From positions 1 to 21,375 of the IMG/VR virus record IMGVR_UViG_3300020395_000130: a stretch of 21,375 nt of DNA. The stretch is one strand, 5' to 3'. This document shows, piece by piece, positions 1,161-5,858 of the stretch. A model generated the notes under the pieces. The model saw only the letters and a program-made list of their open reading frames with translations. It was not told where the DNA came from and did not search any database. The position numbers were made by a program, and so were the translations under genes. How positions within the stretch are numbered: position 1 is the first letter of the stretch; each line of letters starts with the position of its first letter. The stretch is from a virus.

Positions 1161-1301
1161 GTGGGATGAGGGTTCAATCATTTTGAACATGGCATACATG
1201 GCATCCCTGATGAGAAGGATCTTAAATGACCGTGTATTGAACATGGTGATCGTACTCAAGACATCTGCTATGTACACTTCTTATATGATTACTCATCCCA
1301 C
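1161..1301 (+). ncRNA. Candidate novel structured RNA, copy 1
   Basis: Predicted pairings: closing stem GTGGGATGAG (1161-1170) with CTCATCCCAC (1292-1301), 10 bp perfect; side hairpin GTTCAA/TTGAAC (1172-1188); stem TACATGGCA (1195-1203) with TGCTATGTA (1266-1274); TGAG (1211-1214) with CTCA (1255-1258); GATC (1218-1221) with GATC (1248-1251), with AAG facing GTA between these two stems; apical ACCGTGT (1229-1235) with ACATGGT (1241-1247), loop ATTGA. The core from 1198 to 1271 recurs at 4879-4952 with three changes that keep pairing. There is no terminator before the gene at 1326, so it may be a free RNA or the leader of that gene. I do not recognise it as a known riboswitch or ribozyme. The function is unknown. 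Confidence 0.7.
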
Positions 1302-3058: not shown

Positions 3059-3187
3059 ATGGACTGGGAAGAGTATTTAAAAGAGGAGTTAAAGTATTAC
3101 GATGAGCACCCCGAAGAAAATGACCCTATAGAGTGTCATTCTAATTCTTCTATGTGCCTTGATATTGATTATTCAACCAGTTCGTAA
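3059..3187 (+). CDS. Small very acidic protein, 42 aa, unknown
   Basis: A complete frame of 43 codons, starting MDWEEYLKEELKYYDEHPEE, preceded by AAGAGG at a fair ribosome-binding distance and by the TATAAT box at 3023. More than a quarter of residues are Asp or Glu, suggesting an interaction or inhibitor protein, but nothing identifies a target. The last codons (CAACCAGTTCGTAA) are also the start of a repeat R, so the regulatory repeat overlaps the 3' end of this gene. Confidence 0.55.
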   Translation: MDWEEYLKEELKYYDEHPEENDPIECHSNSSMCLDIDYSTSS

Positions 3188-3251
3188 ACTGTCCTCATCT
3201 CTGTTGTAATCCGTTACAATTGGATGATTTCATCTGATGTCATGGTATTAT
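3177..3251 (+). promoter_or_regulatory. Repeat-R module 6, long spacing
   Basis: R is at 3177-3196 (ccagttcgtaaactgtcctc). TTGTAA/TTACAA (3204-3219) is an inverted repeat. A TATTAT box lies at 3246-3251, 49 bp after R, which is 21 bp, or two helical turns, more than in the standard modules. A closer TACAAT at 3215-3220 is the alternative. Confidence 0.45.
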
Positions 3252-4351: not shown

Positions 4352-4405
4352 CCAATTCTCAAACTGTCCACTAATTTGCCATTGGTGGGCATTTTCGTGT
4401 AATAT
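4352..4405 (+). promoter_or_regulatory. Repeat-R promoter module 7
   Basis: R is at 4352-4371 (ccaattctcaaactgtccac). The hairpin CCACTAAT, loop TTGCC, ATTGGTGG follows, then GCATTTTCG and TAATAT at 4400-4405, 28 bp after R. The predicted transcript begins at 4412, the A of the ATG. Nearly the same sequence as module 3. Confidence 0.7.
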
Positions 4406-4807: not shown

Positions 4808-4861
4808 CCAGTTCACGAACTGTCCACTAAGACCCCACAAGGGGTTTTTTATTGCTATTAT
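4808..4861 (+). promoter_or_regulatory. Repeat-R promoter module 8 (drives structured RNA)
   Basis: R is at 4808-4827 (ccagttcacgaactgtccac). A terminator ACCCC/GGGGT with six T lies at 4832-4850, then TATTAT at 4856-4861, 28 bp after R. The predicted first base is 4868, the first base of the RNA's closing stem. Confidence 0.72.
4832..4850 (+). terminator. Short intrinsic terminator inside module 8
   Basis: ACCCC, loop ACAA, GGGGT and a T-run. It insulates the RNA promoter from upstream transcription. Confidence 0.75.
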
Positions 4862-4867
4862 ATAAGA

Positions 4868-4962
4868 GTGAAAGACAAATGGCATCCCTGAGGAGAAGGA
4901 TCTTAAATGACCGTGTATTGAACATGGTGATCGTACTCCAGACATCTGCCATTTGCTTTCAC
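4868..4962 (+). ncRNA. Candidate novel structured RNA, copy 2
   Basis: Closing arm GTGAAAG (4868-4874), one unpaired A, CAAATGGCA (4876-4884) pairs with TGCCATTTG (4947-4955) and CTTTCAC (4956-4962), about 16 bp. Inner stems match copy 1: GGAG (4892-4895) with CTCC (4936-4939), GATC with GATC, and ACCGTGT with ACATGGT capped by ATTGA. Compared with copy 1, T-A becomes G-C in the second stem (positions 1211/1258 and 4892/4939), G-U becomes G-C in the first, and the outer pairs change on both sides. Copy 1's extra side hairpin is missing. There is no R-to-terminator unit directly after it, so the 3' end is uncertain; 4963-5144 may be part of the transcript. Confidence 0.72.
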
Positions 4963-5144
4963 CCATTCTTGGGGCAAACGCAAGGCAGGGGTGAGCAACA
5001 ATCAGATGTCCTTCGGTACACGCTGTGGAAAACTGCTCTTTATGTTTGGAGACCTCTTGTACTCACAGTTTGAAACTGTCAACTCATTGAGTTGCTTGAG
5101 TTTTGAAGTTGTAAGACCCCAACTTATTCTTTAAAGGAGATCAC
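4963..5144 (+). other. Non-coding leader stretch before the 5145 gene
   Basis: I see no convincing gene here; one frame from 4879 stays open to 5073 but looks like chance. It holds TGTGGAAAA at 5024-5032 (reverse complement of the TTTTCCACA boxes at 1305), an R-like word with ACAGTTTGAAACTGT (5065-5079) lacking a -10 box at the expected distance, the hairpin CAACTC/GAGTTG (5080-5094) and a possible AAGTT/AACTT pairing before the ribosome-binding site. Confidence 0.5.
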
Positions 5145-5792: not shown

Positions 5793-5858
5793 GGCAGCTG
5801 CCGACCAATTCACAAAGTGTCCACATCATGCTTTTTTTCCTTGCCTTTCTGCTATACT
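5793..5858 (+). promoter_or_regulatory. GGCAGCTGCC palindrome and repeat-R promoter module 9
   Basis: The 10-bp perfect palindrome GGCAGCTGCC (5793-5802) is followed by R (5805-5824, ccaattcacaaagtgtccac), a T-run, and TATACT at 5853-5858, 28 bp after R. An ATG at 5863 opens a 10-codon frame (MYSNEFYATT), out of frame with the next gene. Confidence 0.7.

Follow-up and report, generated by a model that had tools for sequence, protein, structure and literature searches.

A phage RNA repeated at two promoters

What kind of RNA does a marine phage place twice, nearly unchanged, directly behind promoter-like boxes of one gene island, and what could it do there? The window analysed here, the whole 21,375-base IMG/VR record, belongs to a T4-like cyanophage whose gp6 baseplate gene is 74–81% identical to that of Kyanoviridae isolates. 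A sequence-only reading had noticed a 74-nt core that recurs with three changes, and this description holds: comparison of the two window copies shows positions 1198–1271 and 4879–4952 to be identical at 71 of 74 bases, T1211>G4892 and A1258>C4939 affect base-pair partners and convert U-A to G-C, and T1269>C4950 converts G-U to G-C. This core identity of 96% stands out, since the remaining paralogous stretches of the window, small island genes duplicated at 369–663/2557–2851, 1742–1873/4617–4748 and 1929–2016/6736–6823, are just 73–82% identical at the DNA level. The two copies have unrelated flanks. As also read at the outset, each copy forms its own long closing stem: in copy 1 this consists of 10 bp plus 9 bp, and in copy 2 one unpaired base separates 7 bp from 9 bp. 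A TATTAT box precedes the first base of either stem at a distance of exactly 6 nt. None of 200 shuffled sequences was as stable as the native fold, either for copy 1 (1161–1301, z-score −4.9) or for copy 2 (4868–4962, z-score −6.5). The parts of both copies and their surroundings are as follows.

1149–1154, + strand: −10-like box TATTAT of copy 1; the stem begins 6 nt later, a spacing general across homologous leaders
1161–1301, + strand: leader RNA of copy 1; the closing stem encloses module C, which encloses module M, which encloses core A
1170–1185, + strand: 5' signature of module C, GGGTTCAATCATTTTG, with its 3' half CTTATATGATTACT at 1280–1293
1200–1210, + strand: 5' half of the module M internal loop, GGCATCCCTGA, with its 3' half AGACATCTGC at 1259–1268
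1213–1256, + strand: core A of copy 1
1305–1325, + strand: two TTTTCCACA boxes in the short gap that separates copy 1 from the following start codon
1326–1637, + strand: open reading frame after copy 1, 103 aa, family F0
4809–4827, + strand: palindrome CAGTTNNNNAACTG-TCCAC upstream of the copy 2 promoter, found again at 1101–1119 before copy 1
4856–4861, + strand: −10-like box TATTAT of copy 2; the stem begins 6 nt later
4868–4962, + strand: leader RNA of copy 2; the closing stem encloses module M, which encloses core A
4894–4937, + strand: core A of copy 2
4969–5122, + strand: module B, directly 3' of copy 2, a separate conserved RNA closed by TTGGGG/CCCCAA
5145–5597, + strand: open reading frame of 150 aa that follows copy 2 and module B

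The hairpin GGTTCAATCATTTTGAACC that appears in the energy fold of copy 1 is probably not the conserved fold, since the relatives L003 and L030 are unable to form it and keep AAUCAU/AUGAUU instead. Two further readings of the core were rejected. A hammerhead-like CUGAUGAG at 1207–1214 reads CUGAGGAG in copy 2, and its U pairs with A1258. Protein coding was considered as the frame MASLxRRILNDRVLNMVIVL is open in both copies; the changes follow base pairs including G-U, and the copy in L008 has a stop a few codons upstream. ARAGORN detected neither tRNA nor tmRNA in the window.

The conserved unit is a hairpin of about 44 nucleotides

Is the 74-nt core one self-contained small RNA, as originally proposed? 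The relatives indicate that it is not. The conserved unit is an apical hairpin of about 44 nt, here called core A; the outer part of the 74 nt, containing the UCCCUGA/AGACAUC internal loop, is a second module (M), as it is also found without A. Core A starts with a 2-bp base, followed by an AAG/GUA internal loop, a GAUC/GAUC helix, a 7-nt bulge UUAAAUG and a 6-bp helix, which in copy 1 is ACCGUG/CAUGGU closed by the loop UAUUGAA. The bulge is invariant and the loop is UAUUGAA in all but three copies. In these three (L051 308–379, L122 5292–5365 and L125 865–936) UUUC..GCAAGUAAU around a further hairpin replaces the UAUUGAA loop, indicating that the tip of A can itself be extended. A pairing between bulge and loop, which are complementary at 6 of 7 positions, was discarded as not general, because these same variants keep the bulge and lose the loop sequence.

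A pattern scan of viral contigs yielded 27 contigs, one of which, L022, is a chance match devoid of base pairing. The remaining contigs together with MH319759, the three long-loop variants and the two window copies make up 32 copies of core A, all in marine viral contigs, of which 30 lie outside the window and have the same structure, the long-loop variants included. A covariance model of core A, the kind of search by which the sequence-only reading was to be checked, recovered all 32 copies at E below 1e-6, the next best match being not below 0.29. The further homologues with covariation that this reading called for do exist. Core A is absent from the 12 complete isolate cyanophage genomes searched, where a match in P-SSM4 (E 0.5) is attributed to chance, and one scan of cellular genome contigs returned a sole match, L141 from an Acidobacteria MAG, again a chance one that does not pair. 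Rfam 15 contains no match to the window or, at the gathering level, to 18 loci, and none to 10 leader loci at E up to 3; weak matches (sR24, mir-124 and others, E 0.6 or more) are chance. The same Rfam searches gave no match for the modules other than A, and in the open-access literature no description of A or its companion modules was found. The earlier view of an undescribed family is in line with these searches; its suggestion of a 6S-like polymerase decoy is not, as there is no Rfam 6S match and no large central bubble, the largest internal loop being 7 by 7 nt.

Does the hairpin act as RNA? All 12 core pairs are formed in all 24 distinct core A sequences (100% of cells paired), both-sides changes occur at six core pairs with 37 cells in total, and the covariation score across these 24 sequences is 0.42 as compared to 0.17 for shuffled and at most 0.09 for slid alignments. 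Since kinship among sequences inflates covariation counts, substitutions were also simulated on the tree, using a simplified version of our own of the idea behind R-scape, not R-scape itself. Under this null pair 24-36, with four double changes on separate branches, was unmatched in any simulation (400 and 500 simulations); pairs 6-47, 12-41 and 25-35 reach significance only if no pairs beyond the 12 proposed ones are searched, and a single event each lies behind the covariation of pairs 5-48 and 10-43. Pairing of the whole structure is 1.00, while the null averages 0.78 and does not exceed 0.91; this supports the fold of core A as a whole and, with the 30 further copies, bears out the earlier claim of a functional RNA. 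An instructive case is the pair of loci L020 and L023, which have nearly identical flanks, yet CGAG/CTTG of one is swapped for CTTG/CGAG in the other. G-U pairs are found in 14 of 24 sequences at pair 24-36 and in 13 of 24 at pair 25-35, which fixes the + strand as the one that pairs. Judged by its pattern of substitution, core A therefore acts as an RNA of the + strand, as every core pair forms, both sides change together and pair 24-36 survives the tree-based null. It is a real, uncatalogued RNA hairpin of uncultured ocean cyanophages. A terminator or REP-like palindrome would show no strand preference, and the G-U pairs of A occur on the + strand only.

A hairpin grafted onto unrelated supports

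Comparison of the loci reveals that A is not one compact small RNA: it is a module grafted as the apex onto supports of at least six kinds, which are unrelated to one another. In every case A sits at a tip: directly on the terminal stem in 9 loci, on internal loop M in five copies (two of these lying within module C), in module B, either in its first hairpin (11) or in a later one (3), on module K in one and on an internal loop CA/GUAAGU in 3. Like opening and closing brackets, the 5' signatures of the modules match up with the 3' ones, indicating nesting. The supports also occur without A: module B in about 50 loci, M within C in four, and C within D in L003, L037 and L045. Taken singly, module C is found without A in L003, L010, L018, L033, L037 and L045, and module M in L010, L018, L033 and L037.

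Modules are exchanged even in front of the same gene. Leaders of gene family F1 consist of K carrying A in L016, K carrying B in L053, and K carrying B with A inside it in L024 and L025, and the comparison of GATATC-CTAGGATATC in L053 with GATGTCCTC followed by A and CTAGGACATC in L024 and L025 reveals A as a clean insertion at the tip. For gene family F8 the promoters are empty in L001 and L033 and occupied in L026 and L051, with the short 3' part of the untranslated region retained. Promoters of the same gene family are thus seen with no RNA, with A, with B or with A inside B, and such exchange of nested modules between orthologous leaders amounts to a natural experiment in RNA modularity. 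Structured 5' leaders as such are a known kind of element in cyanophages (manA, wcaG; PMC2864571); what is new is the RNA family A and the nested exchange of modules at one promoter, that is, the combinatorial architecture.

Could the mobile element be palindromic DNA, selfish or driven by recombination, that spreads at promoters without any role for an RNA? Movement from site to site and the clean tip insertion would fit, but the compensatory changes, whose G-U pairs fit one strand only, the invariant unpaired bulge and the presence of one copy per contig speak against it, making this the least credible of the explanations considered. At the other extreme, the leaders might represent a combinatorial RNA system: at least 10 small modules, each with standard helix ends, would nest and replace one another at position +1 of early promoters, so that each phage would make a mosaic RNA of its own. 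The modules of this RNA would work separately in binding or catalysis, with host nucleases or defence factors as conceivable targets. This idea is speculative, and we hold it to be true with low confidence.

Module B of the window has over 50 relatives in marine phage contigs, with conserved GGCARGGGTGAG and CTCTTTATGTTTGGAGACCTC, variable hairpins and no Rfam match, and in other phages A lies within its hairpins. Further modules, D (GGGTTCAGGTGTAAGCGATTCCC), E, F, G, H, I, J and K, recur in long leader RNAs. Such multi-module leaders are found in L003 (3950–4340), L037 (11395–12800), L045 (7091–7700) and L113 (6770–7180), some of them on the reverse strand of the locus, and often end with GTAAGTCC. 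Large domain-built structured RNAs encoded by phages are already known from GOLLD and ROOL, to which the source assigns no function (PMC12286853). These lie near tRNA islands, whereas the modules described here are small, recombined in nests, situated in 5' leaders and without match in Rfam.

Leaders predicted to begin with their own closing stem

Where does transcription of these RNAs start? Among 48 promoters ahead of modules, a stem of at least 7 Watson-Crick pairs starts at +6 from the −10 box in 38%. The share is raised throughout +4 to +8, since the position of the box is uncertain by one or two bases, and amounts to 0–10% at other offsets. The scan counted Watson-Crick pairs only, as a version permitting G-U pairs was too noisy. 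In many loci the 3' arm of the stem ends 20–29 nt before the ATG. These stem-start statistics agree with the proposal of the sequence-only reading that the element is a 5' leader with its 5' end in the closing stem, the start itself being predicted. A whole-genome scan of the 202-kb contig G017 revealed two convincing leaders, the second of which (L168; G017 83,776–84,020, about 3,776–4,020 of L168) is 5'-sealed by a 13-bp terminal stem, contains module D and ends 19 nt before an ATG.

Several observations suggest a protective function. In E. coli an mRNA whose 5' end is base-paired is closed to RppH and RNase E and thereby more stable (PMC3997798), and cyanobacteria possess RNase E and the 5'-3' exonuclease RNase J (PMC10989914). 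On these grounds we place first, tentatively and at somewhat less than an even chance, the explanation that the element is a modular 5'-sealed leader of small early-type cyanophage genes, protecting the transcript in cis from 5'-end-dependent decay, a role already listed by the sequence-only reading. The first transcribed base would be the one that opens the leader's own closing stem, which would bury the 5' end of the transcript in a helix. Within this stem lie one or several conserved RNA modules joined by helices, A being most likely one among several interchangeable rigid tips, and in many loci the leader is followed by a native untranslated stretch of about 20–29 nt up to the start codon. 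The compact sealed leader would then shield the transcript, RNase E and RNase J being the relevant cyanobacterial enzymes. The covariation of core A, the architecture of the leaders and the module exchange in front of one gene family are in favour of such protection. Stem-loop stabilisers of the ompA and papA type likewise have a 5' end that is paired from the first nucleotides and act independently of the gene; in the leaders described here the predicted start falls into the stem, which begins 6 nt behind the −10 box in either copy and at offsets of +4 to +8 in most homologues. Those stabilisers are simple hairpins, though, whereas here the stem encloses conserved, exchangeable and nested modules. 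Against protection it must be said that cyanobacteria have no close homologue of RppH (PMC10989914). Moreover, the invariant bulge and loop of A, which imply a specific contact, be it with a protein or a tertiary one, are not needed for protection alone and are left unexplained by it. If the leaders do protect or regulate early mRNAs, they would add a level of gene control that has escaped notice in these abundant marine phages, and would supply small ready-made parts.

Neighbouring genes and copy number

All loci with A lie in the same plastic island, which is made up of small genes and situated ahead of gp25 and gp6, and the gene that follows A belongs to at least nine families. Structured RNAs with conserved internal loops and bulges in potential 5' UTRs are known from manA (RF01745) and wcaG (RF01761), found mostly in marine metagenomes and in T4-like cyanophages (PMC2864571), a likeness that would suit a ligand- or protein-responsive translational switch, either a riboswitch or an autoregulatory operator of the downstream gene. 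At none of the levels reported did the manA and wcaG models match the window, 10 leader loci or the isolate islands. Both associate with metabolic gene classes, which A does not: a metabolite riboswitch should precede a consistent gene class, and the change of the next gene between phages disfavours a gene-specific riboswitch as well as one for a single pathway. In addition, one gene family has differing leader modules across phages, the 3' arm as a rule stops short of the ribosome site, on its upstream side, and no alternative pairing is visible. We therefore consider a switch very unlikely.

The same variety of next genes is what would be expected if A, together with M, B and C, were a trans-acting noncoding RNA and bound some protein of host or phage, for instance as decoy or sponge, with the leader as mere vehicle, since the genomic place of A would then be free. 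Each of 22 A-bearing contigs, even those of 202 and 129 kb, has exactly one copy, the window alone having two, which is odd for a general stabiliser and natural for an RNA acting in trans. Equally, in L001, L002, L010 and L018 the RNA seems to be owned by no gene, as the next gene's own palindrome and promoter adjoin it directly; such RNA-only units count against protection in cis and for action in trans. The invariant bulge UUAAAUG and the nearly constant loop UAUUGAA also favour this reading. On the other hand, most loci lack a terminator behind the element and often have an ATG within 20–35 nt, and neither the start of the stem at +1 nor the kept native untranslated region would be necessary for a free RNA. 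We place a trans-acting RNA second, as a possibility that is real but rather doubtful; if it is correct, the leaders point to a host target under selection.

Placed third is antitermination resembling that of put RNAs. The putL RNA of phage HK022, about 70 nt with two hairpins, lies directly after an early promoter and acts in cis over 10 kb (PMC9378689). The leaders sit directly behind a promoter-like box, putatively an early one, whichever gene follows, and the put hairpins have essential bulges. A nascent leader could fold on RNA polymerase after promoter escape and cause read-through of terminators in the island. The first 9 kb contain 21 terminator-like sites on both strands, mostly on the + strand, compared to 5.4 in shuffled sequences. 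Yet put RNAs are one conserved family, while the A leaders, whose function is predicted only, range from about 60 to several hundred nt and consist of unrelated modules, and the island genes mostly have promoters of their own. This mode of action thus appears unlikely.

Other elements of the island

Upstream of most small genes of the island lies the palindrome CAGTT-N4-AACTG-TCCAC, with 12 matches in the window as compared to 0.6 expected, among them those at 82–100, 1101–1119, 2479–2497, 3178–3196, 4353–4371, 4809–4827 and 5806–5824. It is probably an operator or activator site of the island promoters. The TTTTCCACA box occurs four times in the window versus 0.54 expected, and the isolates S-RIM44, S-CAM3 and S-H38 have two or three such boxes in an intergenic position of the corresponding island. 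We take the tandem boxes to resemble cyanobacterial DnaA boxes, and they possibly constitute an origin or a site of DnaA titration.
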